Assembly: GCA_018267675.1 (NCBI GenBank)
Contig: JAFDYA010000059.1
Span: 1 to 52,824 of the forward strand
Source: Bacteroidota bacterium
GTDB taxonomy: Bacteria; Bacteroidota; Bacteroidia; Chitinophagales; Chitinophagaceae
DNA: 52,824 bases
Reading direction: 5' to 3'
Part shown: positions 4,255-41,450 of the stretch, piece after piece
Position numbering within the stretch: the first letter of the stretch is position 1
How the letters are laid out: each line of letters starts with the position of its first letter
Notes under the pieces: model-generated
Databases searched by the model: none
The model's input: the letters and a program-made list of their open reading frames with translations, nothing else
Told to the model about the DNA's origin: nothing
Program-made: the position numbers and the translations under genes

Positions 4255-7200
4255 CTACATATTTCTTCTGTACTGTCCTCCAACTTCAAACAAAGCATCA
4301 GTAATCTGGCCTAGGCTACAATACTTTACCGTATGGATTAGTTCTTCAAACACATTGCCACCATGAACAGCTACTTGTTGCAATTGCTTCAGTGCAGCTG
4401 CGCCGGCCGCTCCGCTGCGTGCTTGAACCAATGCGACATTGGCAATTTGAGCTTCCTTCTCTGCTGTTGTAGAACGAATCACTTCGCCCGGGCGAACCGT
4501 AGGTGAGCCCGTAGAGGATAAAAACGTGTTCACACCAATAATAGGATAGGCGCCGGTATGTTTCAGGGTTTCATAATAAAGGCTTTCTTCCTGAATCTTG
4601 CCCCGTTGATACATCGTCTCCATTGCACCCAACACGCCGCCCCGCTCGGTAATCCTATCAAACTCAGCTAGCACGGCTTCTTCCACCAAATCCGTAAGTT
4701 CTTCAATGATAAAAGAACCTTGCAGCGGATTCTCATTTTTGGCTAAGCCCAATTCTTTATTAATGATGAGCTGGATGGCCATAGCCCTGCGCACACTCTC
4801 CTCTGTCGGCGTGGTAATGGCCTCATCATAGGCGTTTGTGTGTAATGAATTACAGTTATCGTAAATCGCATAAAGCGCTTGGAGTGTTGTCCGGATATCA
4901 TTGAAGTCTATCTCTTGTGCGTGCAAGCTCCGACCACTTGTCTGAATGTGATATTTGAGCATTTGGCTCCGCTCATTTCCACCATACTTTAGCTTCATTG
5001 CTTTGGCCCAAATGCGCCGTGCTACCCTACCGATAACGCTGTACTCCGGATCCACACCATTCGAAAAGAAGAAACTCAGATTGGGTGCAAAATCATCAAT
5101 ATGCATCCCGCGGCTGAGGTAATATTCTACAAAAGTGAAGCCATTGGACAATGTAAATGCCAACTGAGAAATCGGGTTGGCGCCAGCCTCTGCTATGTGA
5201 TATCCGGAGATGGAAACCGAATAAAAATTGCGCACGCCATTATCAATGAAATATTGCTGCACATCGCCCATTACGCGGAGCGAAAATTCGGTAGAGAAAA
5301 TACAAGTGTTCTGCGCTTGATCTTCTTTAAGAATATCGGCTTGTACCGTTCCCCGCACTTGCTTCAGCGTTTCTGTTTTGATCTTTCCGTACACATCAGC
5401 CGGTAATACTTCATCTCCGGTAACCCCCAACAACATCAGCCCAAGACCATCATTCCCTTCAGGCAAGGTCATACTCTCCCCTTCTACACCATAGCTCGGA
5501 CGCTTCAATCCCTTGGCCTGATAAATTGCATCAATCTTCTTGTTTACTTCCGCTTCCAGACCATTGGCTTTGATGTATAATTCGCATTGCTGATCAATTG
5601 CAGCATTCATAAAAAACGCAGCAATGGTAGGTGCCGGACCATTAATTGTCATGCTCACTGAAGTCTTAGGGTCGGCAAGGTTAAAGCCGGAATACAACTT
5701 CTTCGCATCATCCAATGTTGGTACACTCACCCCACTATTCCCAATCTTCCCGTAGATATCGGGGCGATGAGCGGGATCTTGACCATAAAGAGTAACGGAA
5801 TCGAAAGCGGTACTTAGGCGCTTTGCCGGAAGCCCCTTAGAAACGTAGTGAAAACGCTTGTTGGTCCGCTCCGGACCGCCTTCACCGGCAAACATCCGTG
5901 CTGGATCTTCTCCCTCTCTTTTAAATGGATAGATACCAGCAGCATAAGGAAATTCACCAGGAAAATTCTCACTCAATGCCCACATCAATATTTCACCCCA
6001 TGCCTCAAAACGGGGAACGGCTACCTTAGGCACTTGAGTATGGGATAAGCTCTCGGTATGCGTCTTGATTTTGATTTCTTTTCCGCGAACCGAATAGACA
6101 TAGTACTCATCTTGAAAATGCCGTTTCCGGCTCTCCCAATTTTGAAGTAAGTGAAGGTTTTTGGGGTCTAAATCCAATGTTACGCGCTGGTAGGCTTCTT
6201 CCAATTCCTTAATGAGTCGATCGGCATCATTCGTCTTGGATGGGCTGCGCATTTCGGCTAAAGTCTCAATTGTTTTCCTAATCCCAAAGAGCTTCTGCGC
6301 CACATTTGCCTGATTCCGTGCCCACTTATCATAGTTCCGATTATTCTCCGAAATCTCGCTCAGGTAGCGAGTTCTGGAAGAAGGGATGATGTAAATCTTT
6401 TCACTGACCTCTTCACTTGGCTTAAAGCTGCTGTGGAAATCAGTACCCAGTTTCTTGTCCAAAGTATCCATCAATGCATGATACATCGTATTGGTACCCG
6501 GGTCATTAAATTGACTGGCAATGGTGCCAAATACAGGCATATCTGCAGGCGCTTCCGTGAAGCGTTTATGATTTCGCTGAAACTGCTTCTTCACATCCCG
6601 CAGCGCATCCTGCGCTCCACGTTTATCAAACTTATTGATACAAACGATATCGGCAAAGTCCAACATGTCAATCTTCTCCAACTGTGTGGCAGCACCATAT
6701 TCCGGTGTCATCACATAAAGACTTGCATCACAGTAATCCGTTATTTGGGTATCACTTTGCCCAATACCGGAAGTCTCCAAAATAATAAGATCATAATTAG
6801 CTGCTTTGAGTACATCTACAGCATCCTTGATGTGGCGGCTCACGGCGAGGTTGCTTTGGCGCGTGGCCATGGAGCGCATATAGACTCTTGGATTCCGGAT
6901 GGCATTCATCCGTATTCTGTCCCCGAGCAAAGCGCCGCCTGTCTTACGTTTGGACGGGTCAACGGAAATAATTGCCAAAGTCTTCTCCGGGAAATCCAGC
7001 AAGTAGCGTCGAACAATTTCATCAACCAACGAAGACTTACCGGAGCCGCCTGTACCCGTGATACCCAACACCGGTGGCACATGGGCTTGCTTCTCTATTT
7101 GTTCCCGCAAGCTCTTCATCATAGCTTGTGTCTCTATAGAGTCAGGGAAGTTTTCGGCAGCAGATATAAGGCGTGCAACATCTTTTGCATGATGCTCTGC

Positions 7201-7662
7201 AATATGCCCTACTTCTCCATTCAATTGATTGCCGGTCGGGTAATCGCTCTGCTGCAGGAGGTCCACAATCATCCCTTCCAGGCCCATTGCCCGGCCATCA
7301 TCCGGAGAGTAGATTCGGGTAATGCCATATTGATGCAATTCTTCAATTTCTTCCGGTAAGATCACGCCTCCACCACCGCCAAACAACTTAATATGCCCAC
7401 ATCCTGCAGCTTTTAGCAAGTCATACATGTACTTGAAGTATTCCACATGCCCACCTTGGTAACTGGTGATGGCTATTGCGTTAGCATCTTCTTGAATTGC
7501 AGTATCCACAACTTCCTGCACGGCACGGTCGTGCCCTAAATGGATCACCTCAGCACCATTCTGCTGCATGATACGCCGCATGATATTAATGCTGGCATCG
7601 TGCCCGTCAAATAGGGAGGCTGCTGTTACAATTCTTATCTTATTCTTCGGTGAAAAGCTCAT
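4255..7662 (-). CDS. icmF: Fused acyl-CoA mutase IcmF (B12 domain, GTPase chaperone, mutase)
   Basis: IcmF is an adenosylcobalamin enzyme that interconverts isobutyryl-CoA and butyryl-CoA, or related branched acyl-CoAs, with its G-protein chaperone built in. The 1135-residue protein shows the three expected parts in order. A B12-binding domain is at about 8-140 with D19-G-H21, the histidine that coordinates cobalt. A MeaB-like GTPase follows with the P-loop [12 protein letters not shown] near 199-210 and an NKFD guanine motif. The large substrate-binding mutase domain runs from about 560 to the C terminus, including a [22 protein letters not shown] block. No break is present and length agrees with the family. 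The gene stands alone, divergent from the helicase gene, and no B12 synthesis gene is nearby. The exact substrate cannot be read from sequence by eye. Confidence 0.95.
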
Positions 7663-26216: not shown

Positions 26217-26271
26217 CTGCGCGAAGGCTCCAGCCTTCGCGCAGATATTTTGTAGCCTCTGGGCTACAAAA
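26217..26271. repeat. Composite palindromic repeat (two adjacent hairpins)
   Basis: Two perfect inverted repeats stand three bases apart. The first, 26217-26244, has a 13-base stem CTGCGCGAAGGCT with a two-base loop. The second, 26248-26271, has a 10-base stem TTTTGTAGCC with a four-base loop. The first stem is much richer in GC than its surroundings. The pair looks like a REP or small MITE-type element; it is not placed like a terminator alone, though it could stop transcription from the large operon. Confidence 0.75.
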
Positions 26272-26562: not shown

Positions 26563-29500
26563 CTACAAGGCCAAACCGGTAAAAGCCGCATATACCGTCG
26601 CTTCCAAGGTATTGAATTCAAGCCCGTCGGGATTAGCCAGTTCCTTATTGATCGTTGGGTCAACGAAAGGAACCCCGCGTTCATGGCCGTTAAAAAGTCG
26701 TTCAATCTTCCCCAATCCTCCTGCAATCAATTGTTGCCGAATCATGCTAAAACAAGCTTGAGTATTCTGCAATTGTAACGCCCGACTACTTGTATTGTCC
26801 CCTGCCGGAATACCTAATCGTTGCTTCTGTAAAGCAATCCTTAATTGTTTAATTGCAAGCGAATGGCCATTCGTTCTCTGACTATCAGTAAAGACAATAT
26901 CGCTACTCCCATCAAAGCTAAATCCGCGACGCCTAAAGCTGCTGCTACCCACCAAAGCCCATACGTCATCTACAATCATCACAGTTTGTTCCAAGTTCGA
27001 AGACCTACCAGGAAATCCAATTGGATGAAAGGCTACTACTTGCCGGCTGGGCAAACTATTAATAATCGTTAGCCGTTCCTTAAGCTCGCTTTTTATCCAT
27101 TGATCATACTGAGGGGCAAAATCCGGTTTCCTCGGCACACAAAGTATCAATCTAAGTCCCGGCTTATTGTTCAACTGTGTAGTCAACTCCTGAATCAAAT
27201 CAATTGCATAGTCTGCACTAGTTGCGCCTTTTGTAAAGCTAAAGCCAGGTGTTTCTAAATAAATAAATTGTCGTGCATTTTTTATAGCTTCTTCAATGCT
27301 CCATTGTGTATCCCTGCGACCATAGCAAGCCGCACTTAGCTCTCGTAGCATTTCATTATACACCCGCTCTTTATCACTTTCGCTTAAAGTATTATCATCC
27401 TTTAGATCATTGAGTTTATCGACAAGTTCAGTACGTAATCTATCCAATCCAGAAGAAAGTAAGCTAGGCAATGAGCCTAGGTTTAACCCATTAATCCACC
27501 CAACAACCAAATCTACAAAACCGTCAAACGTAGTCGGGATACTACTTATATTGCTTTCCACCAGCGACTTCAACAAGGCAAATTCAGGTGTTTCGCAATA
27601 CGGCGCAATGTTCTGTAGCACTGCCGCGTTGAACGTGCCAACGGCTTGTGTCGGCGCGTCAGTTTCACCCAATGGTGTTGCTGCTGTAGGCTCATTCCAA
27701 CTACTTCCTGCCAACTGAATAATCCTTTCATAAATATTTAGACAGCGCCTAAAGGCCATACGACCGATATCGTAAGCTAATTGGCCTTGCTCCGTGTAAA
27801 TGCCAACATTCGCAGATTCTTTTCCTCCAGGCCCACCTGGGCAACCGTTATCTTGACCGGCATTGTGTATTTGGGACAGGATGGGGCCACCACCCAACAA
27901 TGCCTCCCAACTCCCCCCTTTCAAAGAAGCTGCTAAAAGATCACGACGCGCCATTGTAGGGTGCCGCGGCGCATCTCTGGGTTGCAATTCTCCACTCAGT
28001 GTCAGAATAGAATTTAAAAAGCTGTTGAAGTTCGAAAAATCCAATGAAGTGATCGTAGTATGATTCAACCCTATGATTGGCGTATTACTTATTCCCTTTT
28101 TGGTTAAGGGTTGCAACACATTATTTGTTGTCGAAGGCGCAAAGTTGACTGGTGCCTGCACGGGCAGCATAATCGCCCCATACAATCGTTTACTCGTTCC
28201 ATCATTCAAATTGATCATTAAGTCGAAAAACAACTTAGGCTCCGTTGGTACCGTAATCGTACCATCCGGACGCCGCAAGCCTAATGGATCCTTCAAAACT
28301 AGGACAAGCTCTCCATTTAGGGTTCTACCAGGCACAGGGCTTGCCACTTGGGCACATACTCCACCTGCACCATCACCGCGACTCAAGATTGCATCTGTTC
28401 CAAAAACCCGATTATAAACTCTAATTGCCGCACCAACGGGTAAACCGGTAAGTTGCAAGCGCACATCAGTCGCTTGCCCTGATGACGGAGTAATAAACGC
28501 GGCTTGACTATTAGCCTGAATTTCATCCTTAAGGGTTTGAGGGAAATTTGTGTCAGCCGTTACACTACCGATATTCGGAAATTGTGGCCACAAAACAGCG
28601 GTATCATTTGCAGGAAGAATTAATTGATCATCAATTCCAGTACCGACACAAAGTCCCTCTGTCAGGGTTCCACTAAAAATAGTTTGTAGTCGTCCCATCA
28701 AATGATTGCCCGTAGTAAGCGCCGAAACATTTTGATGTAGTCGAATAAGCGGTTTGGGTTCCAATTTGGTGCCATTAAATGCACTATTCGGCGTTCCTAA
28801 CAAATAACCTCCGGATGTCACAACCTGCACGGTAAAGAAATCATGACTCAAGGTATTTGCACCTAAGCTGCTCGGCAGTAGCGGCAGGGGCACCGTCTGC
28901 ATCATCCGGCCATAACACACATTGCCCATTAAGAATTGTGCCGCTTTAACCGGCGGAAAAGCACCATCTTCATCCGTCGCATCTTCTCTCTTCAACTCTG
29001 CCTTTAATCCAGAATCGCTACCGGAATAGCTGGCTAAACTAAACAACCCAATTCCAGCGTTCACCGCTGTAATCCCCTGAATATGGCTACCATCATAGGG
29101 GGCACCACTAGGCTTTACTAAACGAACTGTACTACTATTTGTAGCCAGTCCAATGATCGTTCCCAATTGATCATCCAAGCTATTATCTGTATCAATATCC
29201 AAAATTGGATAAAGCCCAATAAGGCTTTTCACTAAGGAAGCCACATAGAGCGGATGCAGGATATGACCTTGTTCATCAAAAAAGCACATAGTTCCACTTA
29301 CTCCAAGATCTTCCCCAACATTGATATAACCACCTGTAACAGCCGCCGCTGTAGCACCACTATAAAAAATATAAGCGGGTACCTGCCGCAACGTATTTCC
29401 ACCAGTCCATTCAAATGCATGTGTATTATCCTTGTCATACTTCAAGGCCATAAGCCGCTTCATTCTCAAAATCTGTTGCGGAAATAACCGAAGAACAGCG

Positions 29501-29769
29501 CCATCTTCATTGAGCATGCTTCCATCTGCTTTTTGTAAACTAAATACCAGCTTTTTATCACTGTTATTTACAGCGTTTACAAGACCATTAAAAGGAGCAA
29601 GCCAATTGCTACCATTGGATAGGCACAATGTTGCCGCATCAAATGTTATAGACGGGCTACTACTGTTCTCGCTACTCCACTTCTGTGTAGTAGCCGGCAT
29701 GGTAAAACTAAGACCCTGAATGCCGAATTCCTTCAGGTTTTCAACCGTTAAATCTTCAATTAGTGGCAT
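26563..29769 (-). CDS. Large protein with C-terminal phospholipase-D-like fold, catalytic residues lost
   Basis: This 1068-residue protein is the last of three giant genes. It has no signal peptide, lipobox or T9SS tail. Residues 1-600 look beta-rich, with many short strands and Asn/Ser/Thr-rich turns, and no family is recognised there. A helical region follows, including a charged stretch near 780-815. Residues about 826-960 resemble the second half of a phospholipase D: a QFIYLETPGFSF strand, then LRLILCVPRKPD, then VMIVDDVWALVGSSSFRRRGF and SDIVFTD. In active enzymes the HxKxxxxD motif stands before VDD. Here the His and Lys positions are Glu927 and Thr929, and only Asp934 remains. No other HxKxxxxD motif is present. 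It is probably a non-catalytic PLD-like protein. It follows the 1152-residue gene by 33 bases. Confidence 0.75.
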   Translation of the reverse strand: MPLIEDLTVENLKEFGIQGLSFTMPATTQKWSSENSSSPSITFDAATLCLSNGSNWLAPFNGLVNAVNNSDKKLVFSLQKADGSMLNEDGAVLRLFPQQILRMKRLMALKYDKDNTHAFEWTGGNTLRQVPAYIFYSGATAAAVTGGYINVGEDLGVSGTMCFFDEQGHILHPLYVASLVKSLIGLYPILDIDTDNSLDDQLGTIIGLATNSSTVRLVKPSGAPYDGSHIQGITAVNAGIGLFSLASYSGSDSGLKAELKREDATDEDGAFPPVKAAQFLMGNVCYGRMMQTVPLPLLPSSLGANTLSHDFFTVQVVTSGGYLLGTPNSAFNGTKLEPKPLIRLHQNVSALTTGNHLMGRLQTIFSGTLTEGLCVGTGIDDQLILPANDTAVLWPQFPNIGSVTADTNFPQTLKDEIQANSQAAFITPSSGQATDVRLQLTGLPVGAAIRVYNRVFGTDAILSRGDGAGGVCAQVASPVPGRTLNGELVLVLKDPLGLRRPDGTITVPTEPKLFFDLMINLNDGTSKRLYGAIMLPVQAPVNFAPSTTNNVLQPLTKKGISNTPIIGLNHTTITSLDFSNFNSFLNSILTLSGELQPRDAPRHPTMARRDLLAASLKGGSWEALLGGGPILSQIHNAGQDNGCPGGPGGKESANVGIYTEQGQLAYDIGRMAFRRCLNIYERIIQLAGSSWNEPTAATPLGETDAPTQAVGTFNAAVLQNIAPYCETPEFALLKSLVESNISSIPTTFDGFVDLVVGWINGLNLGSLPSLLSSGLDRLRTELVDKLNDLKDDNTLSESDKERVYNEMLRELSAACYGRRDTQWSIEEAIKNARQFIYLETPGFSFTKGATSADYAIDLIQELTTQLNNKPGLRLILCVPRKPDFAPQYDQWIKSELKERLTIINSLPSRQVVAFHPIGFPGRSSNLEQTVMIVDDVWALVGSSSFRRRGFSFDGSSDIVFTDSQRTNGHSLAIKQLRIALQKQRLGIPAGDNTSSRALQLQNTQACFSMIRQQLIAGGLGKIERLFNGHERGVPFVDPTINKELANPDGLEFNTLEATVYAAFTGLAL

Positions 29770-29802
29770 AAAAAATCGTTTGTGCTGGTTTACAATAGAG
29801 GC

Positions 29803-32800
29803 TTATGAATGTGCCATTATTTCGGTGGATCTATTAAGAGGATCGGTAATCCTGACAATCACTTTCACAGGATTACCTTTAACGCAAATACTGAAATTGG
29901 TAATTCCATTCACGAGATTTGTTTCCTTACGACTAAAAGCAGGCAAAGCATTTGCTTCAGCTTCGGACGTTGCTAATGAGGGCAATCCGGATTGAGCCTT
30001 TTGTTCTGCTGCTGTCAAGGTGAGTATTCTGCTACGGACATTATTGCTATCTAGCTCAAACACTTCAACAACAGCACTTCCAAGACTAATTGCATCAAAA
30101 GGAGCGGAAGTCGAAAAAACAAATCGGCTACACCACGCATTAGTTACAGTCAAGCTCAATTGCACCAATGTGGGTGGTAGATCCGGTGGAAAAAAAATAA
30201 CTTCATTCGTGCTCGCCTCACTTGTCCCACTCAGCAAACCTCTACTGGGATCTGCCTTTCCAATCGCAACAGCTTGATAGACGAATGGTCGCCAACTTTT
30301 AACTACACCCAATTCATTTATACGTTTTCCATTGTAAGTAGTACCATCCAATAGCTCAATTGTGGTGTCCATCCATGCCGCATCAGAATGTTCATATACC
30401 GGCAAACCCTTTAACCCTATATCACTACTGATTAATTGCTTCCTTACTCGGTATAGCCTATAGCCGGCGGGTTCCTCACCAACTGTTGTCACCACCTTCA
30501 CCTCAATACCTTCCCCATCCGGATCAGAAGCAGTACGTTTCTTATACTTGCGCAACTGCAACATAGGCGAGGCTGGTACAACCATTCGCGGTACCGCAAA
30601 GAATATTACATTGCTCCGCCCACTTTCAATATTTGCACTATTCACGCTACTCACCTGATACAAAAACATCACATCGGCAGAACCCGGCAAACTCAGCTCC
30701 ATACTGGTAGCAGTTATCGGCTCTTTAGTAATCCTATTAAAAAACTTTTGGCAAGCTTCATTATACTTTGACTGCGCCAAAAGATCCCGCAACTGAGTGG
30801 CCCTATCCACCAGTGCTGTGCTAAGTGGTAGGATATACTTGGTAGGATCACTTGGAAATTCTGCTTTTAAAATCTTATCTAACTGTGTCCGGATTGCCGT
30901 TTCATTCGCTTCCCACACATTATACTTGAACGCATTGACAGCCGATGGCCAACTCAACATGCCTCGACCAGTCTTAGTCGCATCGGGTACCGCAGTAAAC
31001 AATACTGTAGCTGGCAAGAAGGTAACCGCCGGCGGCCTAGGATCCGCCATGCGTGCAACATAGTTTATCTTCTTCCTGTTGGCTACATCAAAAGGTATAT
31101 CCCATGGATTCCAATCACTAAATTCATTAATTGGAACCCGTACACGTTCCATGCCGCGGATATAGGCAGCAAAAGCAACTTCAAATGGCGCGATGCCCGG
31201 GAAATTGCAACTCACTGGTACAATCAATTTGTAGCGCACCATATTGTTCGAAGGCACGTCACTACTACCTACCATGGGTGCCGCCGTAGGCCCGGAGGGT
31301 GCATTGCTAGCCATGATCGATAGTTTATATGGTGCAGGCACATTCGGAACAATATTCGGATCGTCCACCGGAAAATTTATAACAATTATCGGGTTGGCGG
31401 TATCGGTACTATGGAGGGAGAAATAATTGGGAACACCGGCAGTAGGCTGATCTAACATAGCATTGAAAAATTTCCCGGCAAACTCAATTCTAGCTGGCGA
31501 CCGATCAATCCAATCCCAGCTAAACTCAATCTCCAACTGACAAGGCACAGGAGACTGATTAGGGCTTAAACTGTACAAATCCACACCATCCTCTATTCGC
31601 AATTCTATAGCCATAATCCCCGGCTGTTGTTTCGGTGGTGCCACTGCATTAAAGTTCAACTTCCGAAAAGCACTCCATCGTCCAAACACATCCCAAGCAC
31701 CCACAAAATATTTATGCTGCTCGCTTCCATACAAGGGCACAGGTTCCTCACTAGCATTAATGATATATCTATCAACGTCTGCCGGATCTTGCAGGAGGTC
31801 ATTCACCTTTGGCTGTGGCGTAAAAAAGTTTTTGTAACAGTACTTTTCAAACGAATAATCATCATTGTGCACCGTTGAATCGGCACCAGATTTATAGCTA
31901 GCCACAACACCATAACCATGTGGAACGTTACTCTTTGGCCAACGTAATTTTACACTCTGTGTATAGGGCTGGTCCCGCATCTGCGGACGATTGTACTGTA
32001 TCCCCATCGCCTCCAATACTTCTGGCTGTACAGGTTGAGTTCGTTCATCATTAAGCGCTGCAAACTCGATTTGCTTACTCAAATCATCTAAAAAACTAAA
32101 AGGGAACTCATCAAATGGCCTTACCACGTATTGGGCTGTAACCATATAATCTAGCGATAGAAAATTACTTGAAGTTGTAGCCTGCGCCGCATAGACTGCC
32201 CGATAATCGGCGGCTTTAGCTTGCATATTCTTCCGCTGAGGAAAATCATAGGTACCAAAACCCATACCCAAACTTGCTGGGCTTTCATTAGACACAGACA
32301 CCACGGTATGACCGACAACCGGAACCTTAACATTAGCAGTTTGGGAGGCAGAACTTCCTTGCTGATGAATGCCTTCCACCGTATAGTACTCCATATAGGC
32401 AGGCTGCCTTAAAGCTCTTAAAAATGAATAGTCATCACATTGCTCCAGACAATTTCTAACTTGTTTCAATGGCTCATGATGAAGAAAATCCAGATATTTG
32501 ACTGCTTCCGGATGCTGCCATTTGGGATCAACACACTGTGCGTCTATTGAATTGATGGAAGGCGGTGGTGTAAACAACCATTGTCCAAGTTTCAACCGTA
32601 GTCTTGCCGCCGTTTCAGGATCGACCAAATTGGGTAAAAAACCTTGCTTCCCACCATCGTACCCTAACCCTCCCACTTCTCCTGATGCAAAGGGCAAGCC
32701 CACAATTTGAATAGCTTGCCAGTCCTTCTTTTGTAGCATTGCCGCCAGGGCAACACCAGTCAGGTTGGTAACAGCACCCAACCCTTCCGCTTGGATACCC

Positions 32801-33261
32801 ATAATAAAGGGCGCTTTAAACATAACAGTACCACTACTTTCAAGTGTAAACTGCTTTGCCTCCATTAAATTTCCTCCGCGACCGATTGGTGTAAGAATCA
32901 AGCTTTGTCCGGGTGCAACCGTGCAGGAAATGGCCACTAGATACATCTCTTCCCCGAAATAAAAGGGTCGTGAAATATTCACAGCTTCATTACCATTTGA
33001 AATTACCTGACGAATATCGCTTGAGGTATAAACAGGATTTCGTCGCCAAACTTTAAATGGGCTTCTTGGAAAGCCAAATTCAGGATGTGTGGTCCAACGT
33101 AATGCTACCGGGACAGTATCGTTTGGTACATCCAATTTGACCCTACGAACGTCTTCGTCCTTTTTAAAGTTCGGGAAAAAGGATTTTTCTAGAACGCCTT
33201 GTAGCACTACATCGTTAAGCGAAGCACTAAATAATTGAAAGGATGGATGGGCTAAATACAT
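29803..33261 (-). CDS. Large multidomain protein with fibronectin-III-like segments
   Basis: This 1152-residue protein is the middle gene of the large operon and begins 30 bases after the first. I do not recognise a named family. No signal peptide, membrane segment or sorting tail is visible. The N-terminal 500 residues contain aromatic-rich segments such as YFVGAWDVFGRWSAF near 515-530. Later parts show repeated patterns of fibronectin-III-like sandwiches: a W or Y core strand, a GYRLYRV- or FKYNVWEA-type strand, and an end such as SNVIFFAVP. At least three such segments lie between about 740 and 1150. Such proteins often bind other proteins or glycans. Lack of an export signal suggests it acts in the cytoplasm or leaves by a route other than Sec. 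Confidence 0.7.
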   Translation of the reverse strand: MYLAHPSFQLFSASLNDVVLQGVLEKSFFPNFKKDEDVRRVKLDVPNDTVPVALRWTTHPEFGFPRSPFKVWRRNPVYTSSDIRQVISNGNEAVNISRPFYFGEEMYLVAISCTVAPGQSLILTPIGRGGNLMEAKQFTLESSGTVMFKAPFIMGIQAEGLGAVTNLTGVALAAMLQKKDWQAIQIVGLPFASGEVGGLGYDGGKQGFLPNLVDPETAARLRLKLGQWLFTPPPSINSIDAQCVDPKWQHPEAVKYLDFLHHEPLKQVRNCLEQCDDYSFLRALRQPAYMEYYTVEGIHQQGSSASQTANVKVPVVGHTVVSVSNESPASLGMGFGTYDFPQRKNMQAKAADYRAVYAAQATTSSNFLSLDYMVTAQYVVRPFDEFPFSFLDDLSKQIEFAALNDERTQPVQPEVLEAMGIQYNRPQMRDQPYTQSVKLRWPKSNVPHGYGVVASYKSGADSTVHNDDYSFEKYCYKNFFTPQPKVNDLLQDPADVDRYIINASEEPVPLYGSEQHKYFVGAWDVFGRWSAFRKLNFNAVAPPKQQPGIMAIELRIEDGVDLYSLSPNQSPVPCQLEIEFSWDWIDRSPARIEFAGKFFNAMLDQPTAGVPNYFSLHSTDTANPIIVINFPVDDPNIVPNVPAPYKLSIMASNAPSGPTAAPMVGSSDVPSNNMVRYKLIVPVSCNFPGIAPFEVAFAAYIRGMERVRVPINEFSDWNPWDIPFDVANRKKINYVARMADPRPPAVTFLPATVLFTAVPDATKTGRGMLSWPSAVNAFKYNVWEANETAIRTQLDKILKAEFPSDPTKYILPLSTALVDRATQLRDLLAQSKYNEACQKFFNRITKEPITATSMELSLPGSADVMFLYQVSSVNSANIESGRSNVIFFAVPRMVVPASPMLQLRKYKKRTASDPDGEGIEVKVVTTVGEEPAGYRLYRVRKQLISSDIGLKGLPVYEHSDAAWMDTTIELLDGTTYNGKRINELGVVKSWRPFVYQAVAIGKADPSRGLLSGTSEASTNEVIFFPPDLPPTLVQLSLTVTNAWCSRFVFSTSAPFDAISLGSAVVEVFELDSNNVRSRILTLTAAEQKAQSGLPSLATSEAEANALPAFSRKETNLVNGITNFSICVKGNPVKVIVRITDPLNRSTEIMAHS

Positions 33262-33291
33262 AAGGTTAGGTTTTGCGTTTTATCGTTCTGA

Positions 33292-36200
33292 TTAATCTTC
33301 CCAAGGGGCTTTGTTGTTCAACGAAACAGTAACAAGCGGTAGTAGCTTGGCTGGCGTACTATAAAAACTACTGGCCAATTGTTCGACCATGATAGAGCAA
33401 GCTTCTCCGGAATCCGGTATCAATTGTTGCTTGAAAACAACCAATGTACGAGTACCCGCTGTCGTTCTCACAAAATGGCTTATCCTATGTTCCCCGGCTT
33501 TCGCGCGCAGCACCATACAATCCACTGCGGTATTCTCATAAATTTTAAAGGCTGGATCGATCTCCTGATTCTGTGGGTTGAGCACGGTGCGTTTTTGCGC
33601 TTCAATACGTTGCCGCCAAATAGGCTCACTAGCATTAATCAATAAAGAATGCGGCACGAAATCGTCGCTGTTTCTACACCAACACAGTGTCATGCTCGTA
33701 GATTCATTGGTTGCGCTCGGCACGATACCCGCGCTAGCCAGCATACTTTCAAACTCCACATCGGGCAAAATATGGACACTTGGTTGAGGACTGGGCACTG
33801 CAGCCGGCAACCCTACAAAGGCCGTTGGGAGCGCTTTATGCTTAATGGCCTGAGCCGCGAGACTATTCACAAACTCTTCCAGATCCGCAAATCGACTGGT
33901 CTTAAAGGCTCTCCGAAACAAGGGCTGTTCCGACCCGTTGGCTGGTACCGCCTCCTTGGGATCCAGCTCAATATCGAAAGTATAAGGCATTAAAGGCTTC
34001 AATTCAAATGCTGGAGTAAACTGTGCGTGCGTCGGGAAACTCATTTCACCAATACAAGGCAACATTCCGGCGGCAATCATGGCTTCAATAGCTTCACGAT
34101 ACGGTGTCTTTACCTCAGCTGGAATTGCAGTCAATGAGTTCACGATCTCAGGACTATTAAACACCGGCTGCCCATCTGCACCTCTTATTATTGCCTTCAA
34201 TTGCTTTCCATAGGCTTGATACATTTTTAGGAATGCATCATCGTTGAATACCACCACTAATGGATCTTTATAAAAATGAAAAGGCTCATCCATTACCGGT
34301 AAAGTGCCCAAGACATAAGGCGACAAGGGCAGTGGCGGCTTCGCATCCGTCCTAAATGCGAACTCCTCAGTCATATTCTTAGTCGACTGTACCAGCCAAG
34401 GGTCACTAATTTTCTTACGAGTTTCAACCGTCGCTGTGTAGGAAACCGCTAGGCGATAATTCCGATTGGGCTTCATTAAAGGAACCGGCGAATTCCCATT
34501 CAGATAACCCGTAAGTGTTGTTTTATCCGTTGCCAATTGCTCACTCACTTGTGCATGATGCTGTACCTCTGACAACTGCAAGGTTTCAATTGCAGATACC
34601 AATAGAATTGGTAGACCGAGCTCAGGAATACAATTGCAGATACGTATGCGGCACGTCTTTTCTGTACTCGGCTTCACCACAAACAAAATCTTGGCAAATA
34701 GATTGAAGTAGCCACTATGGAGGTATGCCGCTGTTGGCAATACTTTGGGCCGCCAAGGCAAGGCTGGGTTTAGCCAATCCGCCGGAAGGTCAGTAGCCGG
34801 CAGTACATTTTCATCTACAATCAGCTCCGCCAAATTGTAACTCTTTAGAACATTATCCTCACTATCTAGCTCTTCGACAATAACCAACTTTGCCAGCGCC
34901 CCAGCCGATCCGGTACCTGTGGTGGTTTTGGTATTCCGATTGGGCATGTTCAACAAACCTCCATAGAACATGATATGCTCACAAGCTCCAGTTTCAAAAA
35001 TGATACAACAATTTTTACCTTGCTTATCATAGTACTCCTTGATCCATTTGGGATCAATAAGCTTCCGCGCAATCTCTTGCTTCTTTAAGTCCGGCTTGTC
35101 ACAGTAAGGAAGTTGCAGGGTGCGGAAACAAGGCATAGCCGCTTTGAGCATGTTCATTGCCGCATTCCTATCCCCCGCATAACAAATCTCCAAAAATTGA
35201 CCGGTAAAGTTTCTATTGTAAACAATAATGTGCTTAATCCCGTCACCTGCCAAGCTCACTGTATGAACTTCTTCCTCTCGACTTGTATCAATGAAAGTTT
35301 CCTTATCCAACAATGCTCCAGCAGCATTATAGGCGGAAAACACCATCCTAGGTTGTGCCTGAGCACGAGTATTAAAACTGCTAAACCGAAGCACAACTTC
35401 ATCTACCCCATCCACAAGGAAATCGATACGCATATACTCCCGAATACTCAAACCGATGGTTTCGCCAATCTGCCTAAAATGTGTCCGGTACGGACTTTCG
35501 AAGGGCGTTAGTTTACTGGCGTCAATAAATCCTATTTTGCGCTTGTAGAAACTCTTTTTGTCCGATGCACTGAAAATGACTAACGACTTATCAAGCACCA
35601 GTGGGTTCTGTTCAAAAGCTTTGGACTTCCGAGTCAATTTGTAGCATTTCCGCTCTTTTGAGGGTGGAATGTTGACATTAAACTTATCAACACCCAGCAC
35701 TTTTGCACCATAACAAGCACCATAACCGGTTTCACTCAAGAGCGCATCAAATGTTCCAAACTTTTTCTGACTTTGAGGCTCATAAATACGCATTTGGTTA
35801 TTCACCGGTTGGGTACGAACTGTACCGTCCGGATCCGGCTTAGGAATACCGGTAAGCGTCCATCCATTTATTGAATAGCCAATCTTCTGATGACAGAAGG
35901 TAAACAATACCGGCGCTGGTGGCGCAGGCTGCTTACATGCATCCTGCCAACGTACCGTCACATTTGTATTCAATTCGGTACTCCGCTCCACAGCATGTGG
36001 TGCAGTAGTAGGCACATGACTAAAGCAAGCCAAATCGATGCTCGTATCGGTGGGACTACCATTGTTAGGCCGATCAATACGCCATACACTCGGCGGCTTC
36101 CCACCAGGGTCACTGTATGGTGCTCCATCTTCCTGTAGTGTTACGCTACGAAGCGTGTAGGAAATTTTCACTTCATCACTTAGCTGAATGCTGCCACCGG

Positions 36201-39200
36201 TACCAGAATAAGTACCGGGGGAGCTAACAAAACTGTTCGATTCAAACGAGCCATCCAGCAATGGTGCAGCATGCAATTGAATTACCGGAACCGAATCAAT
36301 CGGTACTGTCAACAATTCACTCGGCATTGGGCCATCTGCCAGATTGTGTGCGGTACCGAGGGAAGCATCTACTGGACGCTGGGTAGCTTGCCCATTGCTG
36401 AGCACCGGACTAAAGCTCTGCAAATACACGCCCCGTACCAACTTGGGTGGCTCAACATCATAATCCTCGGTGCCTATTTCCAGCCCAATACAAGCACTGA
36501 TTTCAAAGAAAAACAAATCAATACTTCCACAAACCTCGCCCTTCATATACACTTTTAGATCTGTAGTATTGGGAATTTGAGAAACCAGAACATCAAAGTT
36601 TCCTCGTGCACCAATACTCAAAATCAACAACCGAAGCTTCCCTTCAAAATACATGGTCCCAACTACAAGGAAGGGACTAAAGCTCACTCCAAAATGACAC
36701 CCAGCCGCTATTTTCAGATAGATACCAGAGTCTTCGTCGCCCAATATTATTGCCGCTTCAAGGCCTACTGCAATCGCTATGCCCTGTAGCTTTTTGTTCC
36801 TCAAAAATTGAGGAACCTTATTGCCAAATTTGGAATAATCCAGTTCATTACCTTGAATCATGAGGTAGGCAGAGCCCCGAACTATATCGAGAATGGTCGC
36901 ACTAGCAGGTTGTGCTATTGTACCAAGCCAAAAATGCCAATCACTCGGGTTGTTCCAATTAAAATACAGCTCAATCGGCAGGGTAATGGCCAATACCTGT
37001 TCGATTGAAAAATTGAGCATTACGCCCAAAGTCATTTGACCACGCCCAAAGTCAATATCCAAAATGCCGATAATCCCCACTTGAAGGGTTGTCGCAGGAG
37101 TAGCCGGATTGGACGGTAGTACGGAGATTATCTTGGCCTTCACCATGATTAGAATCCGCGGCCCGGGAAGTTCCAAGACAAACATCCCCTGTAGGTTCAG
37201 GGTAAACCCACCTTCTGCAGTGCCCAACAAGACACCCACGCCAAAGCTCCATCTATCCAAAGCCATCCCCCAAAGCGGCGTAGTCCCATTGCGCAATTTT
37301 GTGGGGTCACCATCAGCATTGATTAACCACCGAAGTGCAGGACCTACTGCACTTGTTGGGTCGCGAGCAGGCTCCAGTCGGCGATAGTGCATTGCAAAAA
37401 CCCCGAGGAATCCATAAATCCCAAGCCCAGTAGCACCAAGAATGATAGGGGTAGGAAATTCTACTCTTAGTCCTAAAAATACACTGACTGCTTCCCGCTT
37501 AGTCACCGGATCGTTCAGAGTTCCCACACCAAGATTGGCCGCAATTCTGATTTTTAATGAGACCAGGGTAATGTCCACACCCCCTTGTATTCCTTTCGCG
37601 TCAATTTCTCGGTAGCCCTCGTCGGGATTATTGGGATTAACGGGTACCTGCACCTTTCCATTGATTATTTCTACAAAGCCACTACCAATAATAACCCCAG
37701 GTATATTGACTCGTACACCACTCGGTAGTATTTGTGGCGGCCCCGCTGGATCTAATGGAATTTTAAGCTTAAACCGATCAACAGTTATGATACCTAGATC
37801 AACTTTTATTGCAAAATCCAACTCTAGGGTTACCGGGTTAAACCGCGCAATCCTCGCCCCTGCGATTGCAAACAACTGCCCTAGTGGATCAGGCAATCGA
37901 AACAAAGAGGGATCACTCAAATCGAGATCATAACCTCTGCTCGCGTCAAAAACAGGTGTATAAGTAAGCCCTTTGTAGGAAGACGTATCACTATAGTTTA
38001 AATTAAATCCAATGGCTTTGTACCGGGCCCGAAGTGGTGGCGGGAGCGGACTAGACGCGCCGGGCAAACGATCCTGACCAATCCCCAATTGCTCACAGAT
38101 AATATCAAACTGCACTTCATAATCAAACACCAAGCCTAAATCAAAACTCCTCAATGGCTCTCCTGATGCCGGTGTCACAAATCGTGTCCTTGCTTCGCCT
38201 CCGTGTAGGATAACTTTACGTGTCCGGAACACATTTAAGCCACCAATGGCAACAGGAACCCCTAAGCCAACAGCCAACGATATCCATGCTCCTGCATCAT
38301 CAGGATTATTGCCAACCGCTGTAGCCGAACTATTGATGATCGGTGCAAAAAGCAACAACGCGCCAAAGATGTTTTTTAGCCGATCATCCCGCTGGGCATT
38401 ATTGTCCATGTGCAGCAAACCGTCTGCATCATTTTCATCAGCATTCAATTTAAAAATCAGCGTAGTTTCATTTGTTGCCTGATCATACTGATAGGTCAAC
38501 TTAAACTCTACCAATCCATCATTGCTCATCGCCAGTGGCCCCGTCTCTCCCGACTCAGCCCTCAATCTGTCTTCCAACTCTGTCTCAAAGTCAATCTCAC
38601 CATAAAGTTCAAGAAGACTCAACCGGCCCATTTCTACTTTCACCCGTATCCCCAATTGTTTCAAAACAGGAGGAATGCTGTTGGGTAGGCTTGGCGCGGT
38701 AGGTGGGGCAGCCGGTGGCACAACAGCCGGTGGATTGCCGGGGGCATGGGCTGGCCGATTAATTGTTGCCGTGATATCATGCGCAGGTGCGACGGTACTA
38801 TTGAATGTTATTCGCACCATCCGATTGTCGGGTTGGTTGGAATATTGCAAATTATCATGACCGTTCGCGTGTGGGGTTATAGTCGCCGAAGGATATAGGG
38901 CTTGTAGCCTATTCTCCACTACTTGATTTCTTCTTTCCGAGAGTCTAAGGTCCGATGTGGCGCCACTCGGATCGTTGCTTGCCCAACCCTCCAGATGAAT
39001 ACTGCCTATCTCATCTGCTGCAGGAAAATTTACCACCTGACTATTCCAATCACTAGAAAAAACAGTGTCCGTAGTCGTCATGGGGTTATCAGAATAGCTA
39101 CTCAATTCAGCACTACTATTCGAAGGACGATTGTAGGTAAACCTAAGCTCCGGACTATTGGGCAATGCCGCTGCTGTTCTTGCTTGGAAGCTTAAGGCAA

Positions 39201-40740
39201 CCGCAAGGTTGCTGTTGTTCGGAACATTCAACTGAATTGTTCGTTGGTTGGAATAGCTCTGTGGGCTTGGCCCTCCGGTAATGTTCACAGAAAATGGCTC
39301 CGCGCCCCGTACACGCAAGGTGACAAGATCGCTCGTCGCACTACCTTCAATTGTCAGTTCATGGCTCGAATCATTGCCTACAATATTGAACGGCTGTAAA
39401 CCCTCGAGTGGCTCACCCGATGGAGGATTATCCGCTTCAGTACCTTGCTGTGTCTGCGTTTCGGCAGCTTGTACCGTCACTTTTATGTATTCGCTACTTC
39501 GAAGAGTTGTCCCAACGCTAGCATCGGCTACACTGATAAATACATTGCGCTCCCCTACGGTATTAAATACTGCTGTCCGACTGGTATTGTCCCATACTTC
39601 GCTGCCATTATCCAAAACATGTATCGTATAGGGCGGCATTCCACCACTCACTTCAAGATGCATCACAGCTGCCTGCTGTACCGTGATAAAGCCTAGTGGT
39701 GCCGCGGATGGAGCACTTGACACTGCAGGAGTGATCACACCACGATGCAGACCGGCTACCCGATCAGCGCCGTTGTAAAATGTAGGTGTAGCTGAAAGAT
39801 TGCTGAGCGTTTCACTGGTATAAATATCCAATGCTGCTTCAAAACTTACTTCCCCGTCAAAAGATATCAGCGCATCGTTAAACCGAAGATTAAAGCCTAA
39901 GCCCTGATCGTTGCTGTAGTAAAGTAAAGCCTGACCAATGTATAGGCCGCGCCAATTCTCATCCACACCAAAGTGGTCTAGTATGTTTGCTGGTGTGTTC
40001 TGCGTACTGTTATCGATGACAACCTGATCAATACTAAAGGCAACATGCTCACTTTGATGCACGGCTATAGCAGGATTCATCCGAATCAATTCCCCCATAT
40101 CCAGATCTTGTGGCGCATCAAATCCACTTACTCCCCAGCTCTCAATATTGAATTGAGGATTCAGGTCGTTAGCATTATCCCCTTGGGTATAACTCAACAA
40201 TACCTTCGGCAAACTAATCACCACGCGCTCGTTGGCATGTGCGGGATCTATTTTCACCCGATTACTGGAAGGGTCTATTATTCCCGGTTTCCACTCCGCT
40301 CCAAGTGAAAAATTGAGTATATCCACCAATAGCTCAAGCCGGAACGCTACCGCCGGAAAATCCACAACCTCAAGCGTTGCGTCATCCATATCGGCATCTG
40401 TAGGCTGTGGGCGCAAATCATTCAATAAAGCAGAAACTTGAGGCAACTTTCCACCACCAGAACTATTATTTGCTGCACGATCCACAAACTCGGCGCCATC
40501 TCTCGGCACCATCATTCTAAAATTGAGGTTCCGTTTTTCCCAAGTAAACTGTGCTCCACTCGGTGCATTATGCACCACCTCCGCACTACCACTCCCATCA
40601 CCCTCAAAACTCAGAATCCCCGTATATACTACAAAATTGTCATCGTAAAAGGTATTGAGTTCATCTACACTTAATATCGATAAGTATTCCTGAACCTGTT
40701 GTGGTAGTTGAATGCCCACCAAATACTGTGGCGCTAACAA
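33292..40740 (-). CDS. Giant beta-rich protein with internal OmpA-like module
   Basis: This 2482-residue protein is the first gene of the large operon. Visible parts are: N-terminal beta region; a PKD/Ig-like segment about 350-425; an OmpA-like module about 565-645 with HLEGWASNDP and LRLSERRNQVVENRL; a Pro-rich linker about 657-690; and a long Gly/Ile/Leu-rich beta region about 850-1430 that reminds me of DUF6603 proteins (low confidence). The C-terminal 1000 residues are Cys-containing, for example KNCCIIFETGACEH. No signal peptide or T9SS tail is seen. The start is uncertain. TTG at 40740 opens the uninterrupted frame, but the only nearby ATG in the same frame is at 40762-40764 and is separated from it by a TGA at 40750-40752. 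Function is unknown. Confidence 0.72.
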   Translation of the reverse strand: MLAPQYLVGIQLPQQVQEYLSILSVDELNTFYDDNFVVYTGILSFEGDGSGSAEVVHNAPSGAQFTWEKRNLNFRMMVPRDGAEFVDRAANNSSGGGKLPQVSALLNDLRPQPTDADMDDATLEVVDFPAVAFRLELLVDILNFSLGAEWKPGIIDPSSNRVKIDPAHANERVVISLPKVLLSYTQGDNANDLNPQFNIESWGVSGFDAPQDLDMGELIRMNPAIAVHQSEHVAFSIDQVVIDNSTQNTPANILDHFGVDENWRGLYIGQALLYYSNDQGLGFNLRFNDALISFDGEVSFEAALDIYTSETLSNLSATPTFYNGADRVAGLHRGVITPAVSSAPSAAPLGFITVQQAAVMHLEVSGGMPPYTIHVLDNGSEVWDNTSRTAVFNTVGERNVFISVADASVGTTLRSSEYIKVTVQAAETQTQQGTEADNPPSGEPLEGLQPFNIVGNDSSHELTIEGSATSDLVTLRVRGAEPFSVNITGGPSPQSYSNQRTIQLNVPNNSNLAVALSFQARTAAALPNSPELRFTYNRPSNSSAELSSYSDNPMTTTDTVFSSDWNSQVVNFPAADEIGSIHLEGWASNDPSGATSDLRLSERRNQVVENRLQALYPSATITPHANGHDNLQYSNQPDNRMVRITFNSTVAPAHDITATINRPAHAPGNPPAVVPPAAPPTAPSLPNSIPPVLKQLGIRVKVEMGRLSLLELYGEIDFETELEDRLRAESGETGPLAMSNDGLVEFKLTYQYDQATNETTLIFKLNADENDADGLLHMDNNAQRDDRLKNIFGALLLFAPIINSSATAVGNNPDDAGAWISLAVGLGVPVAIGGLNVFRTRKVILHGGEARTRFVTPASGEPLRSFDLGLVFDYEVQFDIICEQLGIGQDRLPGASSPLPPPLRARYKAIGFNLNYSDTSSYKGLTYTPVFDASRGYDLDLSDPSLFRLPDPLGQLFAIAGARIARFNPVTLELDFAIKVDLGIITVDRFKLKIPLDPAGPPQILPSGVRVNIPGVIIGSGFVEIINGKVQVPVNPNNPDEGYREIDAKGIQGGVDITLVSLKIRIAANLGVGTLNDPVTKREAVSVFLGLRVEFPTPIILGATGLGIYGFLGVFAMHYRRLEPARDPTSAVGPALRWLINADGDPTKLRNGTTPLWGMALDRWSFGVGVLLGTAEGGFTLNLQGMFVLELPGPRILIMVKAKIISVLPSNPATPATTLQVGIIGILDIDFGRGQMTLGVMLNFSIEQVLAITLPIELYFNWNNPSDWHFWLGTIAQPASATILDIVRGSAYLMIQGNELDYSKFGNKVPQFLRNKKLQGIAIAVGLEAAIILGDEDSGIYLKIAAGCHFGVSFSPFLVVGTMYFEGKLRLLILSIGARGNFDVLVSQIPNTTDLKVYMKGEVCGSIDLFFFEISACIGLEIGTEDYDVEPPKLVRGVYLQSFSPVLSNGQATQRPVDASLGTAHNLADGPMPSELLTVPIDSVPVIQLHAAPLLDGSFESNSFVSSPGTYSGTGGSIQLSDEVKISYTLRSVTLQEDGAPYSDPGGKPPSVWRIDRPNNGSPTDTSIDLACFSHVPTTAPHAVERSTELNTNVTVRWQDACKQPAPPAPVLFTFCHQKIGYSINGWTLTGIPKPDPDGTVRTQPVNNQMRIYEPQSQKKFGTFDALLSETGYGACYGAKVLGVDKFNVNIPPSKERKCYKLTRKSKAFEQNPLVLDKSLVIFSASDKKSFYKRKIGFIDASKLTPFESPYRTHFRQIGETIGLSIREYMRIDFLVDGVDEVVLRFSSFNTRAQAQPRMVFSAYNAAGALLDKETFIDTSREEEVHTVSLAGDGIKHIIVYNRNFTGQFLEICYAGDRNAAMNMLKAAMPCFRTLQLPYCDKPDLKKQEIARKLIDPKWIKEYYDKQGKNCCIIFETGACEHIMFYGGLLNMPNRNTKTTTGTGSAGALAKLVIVEELDSEDNVLKSYNLAELIVDENVLPATDLPADWLNPALPWRPKVLPTAAYLHSGYFNLFAKILFVVKPSTEKTCRIRICNCIPELGLPILLVSAIETLQLSEVQHHAQVSEQLATDKTTLTGYLNGNSPVPLMKPNRNYRLAVSYTATVETRKKISDPWLVQSTKNMTEEFAFRTDAKPPLPLSPYVLGTLPVMDEPFHFYKDPLVVVFNDDAFLKMYQAYGKQLKAIIRGADGQPVFNSPEIVNSLTAIPAEVKTPYREAIEAMIAAGMLPCIGEMSFPTHAQFTPAFELKPLMPYTFDIELDPKEAVPANGSEQPLFRRAFKTSRFADLEEFVNSLAAQAIKHKALPTAFVGLPAAVPSPQPSVHILPDVEFESMLASAGIVPSATNESTSMTLCWCRNSDDFVPHSLLINASEPIWRQRIEAQKRTVLNPQNQEIDPAFKIYENTAVDCMVLRAKAGEHRISHFVRTTAGTRTLVVFKQQLIPDSGEACSIMVEQLASSFYSTPAKLLPLVTVSLNNKAPWED

Positions 40741-41399
40741 ATCAAATAGTCAGAATTTTCTCATAGCGAAGGGTATAAAAGAGTTAGTTTGAGGTTTAAG
40801 CGTCTAAATTTTTCTTCGTTCTTATTCTATTCTCGCAGATTCATCTTAAGCATAATAGTAGAAAATTAGTAACAGCATCAATAAAATGCATGTTTTTATA
40901 GTTCTTGTCGCCTAAATTAAAAATTAATTTTTTAAAACAAAAAAACAAATCTCAATTAGAAACTTTATACGTTACATATGATTTAATACAAGTCATTAAC
41001 TTGCCACAAATCAATGCATTATAAATAAAATCGCTATGATACAGTTTCCCAACTTTAATCAATTCAGACTAACTCAAGTCATCTACGATAAGAACCTTTG
41101 TAAAGAATTCTACCGGCAACAAGTAATACAGTTTGCGCAAGCATGCTATTCATTGCAGCACTTGTGGAATCTGGTATTTCAATTTCCGGGCTGTGTCCAA
41201 CTGCCTCTGTCGCCGCATTTGATCAGGTTTCGAAAATAAAAAGTGTTGCTCTAGTCTGAAAAAAAGAAAACATACTTGGTAGTATAATTCGGATCAGATT
41301 TACAATTCAAAAGGCAATCCAGATTCCGTAATAGACACGTTAGATTAAACTCGCGACACCTATCAACCGCCATCAAGAATAACGGTAACTATTGGGCAC
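40741..41399. other. AT-rich gene-poor stretch upstream of the large operon
   Basis: About 660 bases hold no convincing gene. Base content is clearly more AT-rich than the flanking genes, with runs of A and T near 40900-41030. A frame of 67 codons at 41036-41239 (plus) has no recognisable family. It should contain the promoter of the giant operon, but I found no clear TTTG-N19-TAnnTTTG pair. Confidence 0.6.
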
Positions 41400-41426
41400 A
41401 AAAAAAAGCTGCCCTTTGGACAGCTT
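41400..41426 (-). terminator. Intrinsic terminator after rpsP
   Basis: On the minus strand AAGCTGTCC pairs with GGGCAGCTT (one G-T pair) around a three-base loop. A run of eight T follows. It ends the rpsP transcript 25 bases after the stop codon. Confidence 0.92.
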
Positions 41427-41450
41427 CAAATAATCTTTGGCCGAAAAAAC

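Follow-up and report, generated by a model that had tools for sequence, protein, structure and literature searches.

Giant proteins without recognisable export signals are encoded by a co-inherited three-gene cassette in Bacteroidota and Rhizobium

Genes A, B and C are three giant genes that follow one another on one strand of a 52,824-nucleotide stretch of DNA of a Bacteroidota bacterium (family Chitinophagaceae; contig JAFDYA010000059.1 of assembly GCA_018267675.1), a stretch referred to here in its entirety as the window, and we find that the three remain neighbours in other genomes, usually in one order, and evolve in step. The reading that we favour, tentatively and with a confidence that falls short of probable, is that this cassette gives rise to a membrane-active complex which is produced in the cytoplasm, leaves the cell by lysis and docks on the membranes of other cells. 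The initial annotation had described three consecutive giant genes with short gaps, filling over a quarter of the window, and the open reading frame (ORF) coordinates bear this out (gaps of 30 and 33 bases between A and B and between B and C, respectively; the three genes make up 27% of the window). Its picture of a coherent system holds for a patchily distributed three-gene set without recognisable signals, but its link to a contractile particle finds no support. The outcomes named beforehand as telling against such a system, that is, genes found mostly alone, known families or clear signal peptides, were looked for and did not emerge.

The order A-B-C on one strand was found by family-profile searches at six loci, the window included. 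The other five are in Niabella drilacis (L002), in a Ferruginibacter metagenome-assembled genome (L003), in two genomes of the same family as the window genome (G079 and G171) and on plasmid c of Rhizobium tropici CIAT 899 (L016). The A gene of G171 is interrupted and runs over two overlapping frames (L013:6408-13402), and G250 carries A-B on one contig and B-C on another, both ending within B. Homologues also occur together in Mycetohabitans endofungorum (L031), rearranged as B'-PLD-A' (PLD, phospholipase D), and as A'-B' on pAMI4 of Paracoccus aminophilus (L032), so that the check proposed in the initial annotation, whether the same three genes lie side by side elsewhere, is answered by the five loci outside the window and one rearranged trio. 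When contigs in the homologue lists were counted as the same if equal in length, eight were common to the lists of A, B and C (19 for A and B, 13 for A and C, 12 for B and C). Pairwise distances were compared in 11 triples, taken from five of the six loci (G171 was omitted, with its broken A) and six of the eight shared contigs (omitting 467753, the Ferruginibacter locus already counted, and 33195, with a partial A); they correlate with r values of 0.992, 0.976 and 0.973, and in each case 0 of 5000 permutations gave a value as high. The conserved order, the shared contigs and the correlated distances therefore indicate that the genes are inherited together.

At E<=1e-3, 95 homologues of A, 47 of B and 36 of C were found, many of them full-length, and the similarity among them is far beyond chance. 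Their sources include Algoriphagus, Lewinella, Nitrospira inopinata, Nannocystis, Sulfidibacter, Streptomyces and a Leptolyngbyaceae cyanobacterium, several with A only; Streptomyces NPDC057280 has A and B on contigs of equal length, and C is listed from Streptomyces NBC_00658. Presence is patchy, as the initial annotation had asked to be checked between strains: B is present in one of four genomes of the genus and in 4 of 294 genomes of the family sample (the window genome being counted in both), as well as in one of two genomes of the genus of G079, namely G079 itself, and a profile search with C of the phylum sample found it in 1 of 395 genomes, the window's own. The distance of window A to A of G079, from the same family, is 0.69, and to Rhizobium A 0.72; such similar distances suggest transfer between lineages. 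It is unlikely that a co-inherited set found in Bacteroidota and Rhizobium, with rearranged or partial versions of it in Mycetohabitans, Paracoccus and Streptomyces, is neutral.

Signal-like starts were scored by simple hydropathy, not by SignalP, as the best 12-residue hydrophobic stretch with a threshold of 2.0, over the first 45 and again the first 60 residues in the families and over 60 residues in control proteins. Among sequences beginning with M, V or L, none reaches 2.0 over the first 45 residues (0/77 A, 0/48 B, 0/37 C), and in the families as a whole none has a lipobox-like start (0/78 A, 0/48 B, 0/37 C); by this measure the families agree with the earlier statement that the proteins lack a signal peptide or lipobox. 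Over 60 residues, 2.0 or more is reached by 2 of 77 A (2.11 and 2.06), 0 of 48 B and 1 of 37 C sequences (2.00). All seven exported-looking window proteins reach 2.3 or more over this length, and 3 of 11 presumed cytosolic controls exceed 2.0, two of them ORFs with doubtful starts and the third an aminopeptidase with a lipoprotein-like start.

At E<=1, Pfam gives nothing for A or B, and for C only a sub-threshold match to PLDc_2 (E 0.072), while NCBIfam matches none of the three; the curated families searched thus give no above-cut-off match for the window proteins, consistent with the view that no known system is recognised. The Ig/PKD-like and OmpA-like parts first read in A are, however, matched by family profiles to solved structures. 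Profile A3 matches the phage decoration proteins 5lxk (E 5.6e-4) and 8zvi (E 1.4e-3), and the OmpA-like domain matches 6u83 (E 3.1e-5) and 1r1m (E 2e-4); Pfam OmpA does not reach its cut-off on A. The A profile was built from the window protein and 77 of the 95 homologues (P0085-P0161), the 18 omitted being the near-identical P0084 and the weaker P0162-P0178, whereas the structure alignment of A used 35 of the 95, alignment A1 33 of the 47 B homologues and alignment A2 28 of the 36 C homologues. The core of A, within which residues of about 900-1450 are the best conserved part of the protein, is predicted to be amphipathic and porin-like, and to be a distant relative of DUF6603. A also contains 23 cysteines. 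An OmpA-like domain adjoining a porin-like core would suit a complex of the producer's own envelope; A would then be an outer-membrane barrel, held to the wall through the OmpA-like domain and exported by an undescribed route. This we consider improbable, with no clear signal in 77 A homologues and with homologues of A, B and C named from Streptomyces, a genus without an outer membrane.

The phospholipase D-like part noted earlier in C is backed by the predicted fold, and C is predicted to comprise the whole fold with its catalytic motif lost. HxKx4D occurs nowhere in the 37 C sequences, nor in C of R. tropici. With the motif site aligned to the intact HxKx4D of the Mycetohabitans protein, residue 927 is E in 30 of the 37 sequences, S in 4, T in 2 and Q in 1, and the aspartate at residue 934 is present in 37 of 37. 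B has no convincing structure match (one chain at E 0.92). LRW...G..V.RR-like units recur along it and look fibronectin-III-like to the eye, as the initial annotation had it, but no tool confirms a fibronectin-III domain. When the families were compared by segments with hhalign (261 pairs), the only matches were between the core of A and DUF6603, between C and the Mycetohabitans phospholipase D, and between A and B over one short stretch (probability 19.6), which falls in a part resembling a jelly-roll. In each of 10 comparisons with the window, B is the gene that changes fastest.

The core of A shows a weak alignment to the DUF6603 of loci L033 and L036 over ~340 columns (hhalign E 0.0011 and 0.00079). 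PF20248 is annotated on 8 of the 95 A homologues (precomputed annotation), and NCBI names P0086 DUF6603; in window A, PF20248 has no match at E<=1 (curated cut-off 27 bits), nor was any found in a search of its genome. DUF6603 was detected in 12 of 296 phylum-sample genomes versus 0 of 14 controls. The six DUF6603 loci fetched are likewise giant-gene operons and fall into two other kinds, L033 with L036, and L034 with L035, L037 and L038, and the two DUF6603 sets match each other (probability 98.3). Both kinds, which belong to other Bacteroidota and encode unclassified giants, are kept between genomes of different families. None of A, B and C matches the partner proteins of these other operons by phmmer or in the profile pairs compared. 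Proteins of the second kind share an N-terminal part and carry differing ends: an S74 tail-spike chaperone in L035 (E 1.1e-8), also found in L038 (E 3e-4, just under the cut-off), the N-terminal part of which was not matched; Kelch repeats in L056, which continues L034; and WD40-like repeats in L057, which continues L037, in one of four tandem paralogues. These paralogues (L057:7258-13691) have their N-terminal ~300 residues in common, and two of them share little beyond it. The variable-end proteins look like a target-binding fibre set, and this set is the main hint from the relatives that such operons may build something released.

In the released complex that we tentatively favour, A, B and C would be made without recognisable export signals and assemble with one another, and release would follow lysis of the producer or take another route. 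C, as predicted, could no longer cleave by the known mechanism, and its role would then be the binding of phospholipid head groups, while the core of A, a predicted porin-like or belt-like strand sheet with hydrophobic and polar faces, may insert into or cover lipid, with the OmpA-like domain predicted to reach the wall beneath. B would be a fibre or adaptor, joining A and C or recognising the target, and the module would be likely to move between lineages. Several observations weigh against this proposal. C appears enzymatically dead, A, B and C are conserved over their entire length with no variable toxin tip seen, and no immunity gene was recognised beside C among the genes scanned (20 window ORFs), nor was a secretion gene. 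The OmpA-like domain of A has in the alignment a serine at what we take to be the position of the usual peptidoglycan-binding aspartate. Closure of the predicted barrel of A is not established, because the model has a predicted template modelling score (pTM) of 0.54 and a root-mean-square deviation (rmsd) of 7-13 Å to known outer-membrane barrels, and we know of no precedent for a single-chain barrel this large inserting unaided. The link to the fibre-bearing operons is weak, with an hhalign probability of 21-25 between the core of A and the DUF6603 of L033 and L036, and of 0.2 for the set of L034, L035, L037 and L038.

Moreover, the joint evolution of the genes and the lack of signals are equally consistent with an internal complex. 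Here the sheet of A would hold or carry lipid inside the cell, like the beta belt of ApoB100, the dead phospholipase D of C would read head groups, and nothing would be exported. Such a lipid-handling complex fits the same data nearly as well as a released one, but the OmpA-like domain is then unexplained, rarity and patchiness are odd for housekeeping lipid work, and the match of ApoB100 to A is poor (rmsd 38.5 Å, TM 0.10); we regard it as possible, if doubtful. Extending the released complex to its relatives, DUF6603-type giants would form a new class of membrane machines, signal-free and built of several subunits, that has spread across phyla in more than one type of operon, and in the present cassette a single chain of ~30 amphipathic strands would enter membranes without the normal route of export or barrel insertion, steered by a dead phospholipase D that reads head groups. 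We think this broader view unlikely, although it deserves mention. If the favoured reading is true, the cassette would specify a giant membrane-active assembly that differs from the toxin and secretion systems tested here, and C would be a conserved example of a phospholipase D that has lost catalysis but is retained for a different purpose. The cassette can be tested directly in Niabella drilacis DSM 25811, a named strain in which A, B and C are all intact.

Positions of the cassette and of its parts are collected below. The outer end first assigned to A, 40764, coincides with an in-frame ATG, but a stop follows at its fifth codon, and the TTG at 40740 is the only possible start of A in the window. 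P0084 (2490 residues), the near-identical database protein, spans this site (window 40740-40764) without a stop, and intact copies of A therefore exist; window A either starts at TTG or else bears a nonsense variant or consensus error upstream.

Table 1. Features of the cassette and its borders in the window
Feature	Position	Strand	Description
Gene A	33292-40740	minus	2482 residues, TTG start; first of the cassette; DUF6603-related core, Ig-like and OmpA-like domains
A residues ~350-425	39466..39693	minus	Ig/PKD-like domain; family profile A3 against phage decoration proteins
A residues ~570-655	38776..39033	minus	OmpA-like domain, GxAS...LSxRR variant; profile and alignment
A residues ~693-1442	36415..38664	minus	~30 amphipathic strands, DUF6603-related, porin-like in predicted model
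A residues 787-834	38239..38382	minus	Predicted helices in the core, partly hydrophobic
Gene B	29803-33261	minus	1152 residues; no assigned family; by eye, fibronectin-III-like and jelly-roll-like units in a chain
Gene C	26563-29769	minus	1068 residues; predicted pseudo-phospholipase D
C residues 320-1049	26623..28812	minus	Complete two-lobed phospholipase D fold (predicted)
C residues 927-935	26965..26991	minus	Site of second catalytic HxKx4D motif; His and Lys gone, Asp retained
Terminator-like hairpin	26217..26244	.	Between C and the aminopeptidase gene; 12 pairs; consensus match only
Terminator-like hairpin	41405..41427	minus	After rpsP (S16), upstream of A; consensus match only

Upstream of A lie rpsP (S16) and an SRP54 gene, and downstream of C an M1 aminopeptidase gene that is present in three of three genus relatives, where none of the other window neighbours was detected next to it. 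Terminator-like sites are not enriched in this stretch (14 versus a shuffle mean of 15.4), and Rfam matches only tRNA in the window and no RNA element in the 700 bases that precede A. The window genome (2.7 Mb, 211 contigs, 84% complete) matched A and B once each, and a type IX secretion system tail domain was detected among window proteins, which, like the relatives found in the searches, points to Bacteroidota as its phylum. A histidine kinase gene adjoins A in three cassette loci (L002:6968-9724, L003:6529-9657 and L012:9088-12717), accompanied in L002 by a response regulator, and another lies near a DUF6603 operon (L037:13550-18085); the adjacency may be due to chance, because histidine kinases are common there. 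Transposase genes lie near the cassette on the Rhizobium (L016:11366-12289) and Mycetohabitans (L031:3410-7205) megaplasmids. Elsewhere in the window (4255-7662), one protein of 1135 residues fuses B12-binding, MeaB-like and methylmalonyl-CoA mutase domains, an IcmF-like arrangement.

The initial annotation had also considered a contractile particle, and giant signal-free proteins could be cargo or parts of one. The tail-sheath domain PF17482 was found in four of six A-B-C genomes searched, but it occurs in 40 of 147 family-sample genomes anyway (the sample includes two of the six). Sheath and cassette are on different contigs in the three genomes that could be compared, G000, G079 (cassette on a 487 kb contig) and G171, the Ferruginibacter genome not being compared, and PF17482 was not found in Niabella drilacis. 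No particle gene was recognised among the 20 scanned window ORFs, which are not all of its ORFs, and cargo of an extracellular contractile injection system would be expected near a particle locus. Moreover, A is more than twice the size of an effector of over 1,100 residues that a passage of PMC11297309 cites as packed in such a system. A link between sheath and cassette is not supported, and we hold a role in such particles to be very unlikely; an explanation outside the released, internal, envelope and particle readings seems to us somewhat less remote, though still quite unlikely.

An anti-phage defence system was considered and rejected, with no match in PADLOC-DB at E<=0.01, as was a phage origin: tblastn with B in phage records, the C profile in viral contigs and PHROGs all gave none, and a viral fold library gave, at E<=0.001, a single match, to the core of A (E 3.1e-4, TM 0.11). 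The literature searched, which comprised papers outside subscription, has no mention of DUF6603 or PF20248, nor was anything found there on an OmpA family protein with Nitrospira inopinata or on toxin complex (Tc)-like operons, and titles and opening lines of abstracts on giant proteins and injection systems contain nothing on this cassette.

Among known systems, Tc toxin complexes likewise consist of three giant signal-free subunits encoded by neighbouring genes, with a size order similar to that of A, B and C. However, A, B and C have no Pfam Tc/Rhs match, and C has a predicted phospholipase D fold. C shares this two-lobed fold with phospholipase D enzymes, but differs from PldA of P. aeruginosa (Tle5-type), eukaryotic PLD1/PLD2 and plant PLD alpha in that the catalytic HxKx4D motifs are absent (0/37), and it sits instead with A and B in six loci. 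A Tle5-type effector of a type VI secretion system would carry that motif; moreover, no VgrG or immunity family was found in the 20 scanned window ORFs, VgrG not having been searched in the whole genome. With outer membrane proteins of the OmpA type A shares the OmpA-like domain, but it has no recognisable signal, and it differs from these and from OccK-like barrels also in its far longer core and its Streptomyces homologues. DUF6603 (PF20248) proteins resemble A in the weak alignment of the core and in their operons of giant genes, but have other partners, and window A gives no PF20248 match. Homologues of all three proteins are found in the Mycetohabitans trio (IHE27_RS02675-RS02665, on a megaplasmid), with E values of 1.4e-38 for the A-like protein, 1.9e-6 for the B-like protein and 2.3e-6 for the phospholipase D part, and there the phospholipase D, a protein of 509 residues (L031:12161-13699), keeps HxKx4D intact, unlike C.

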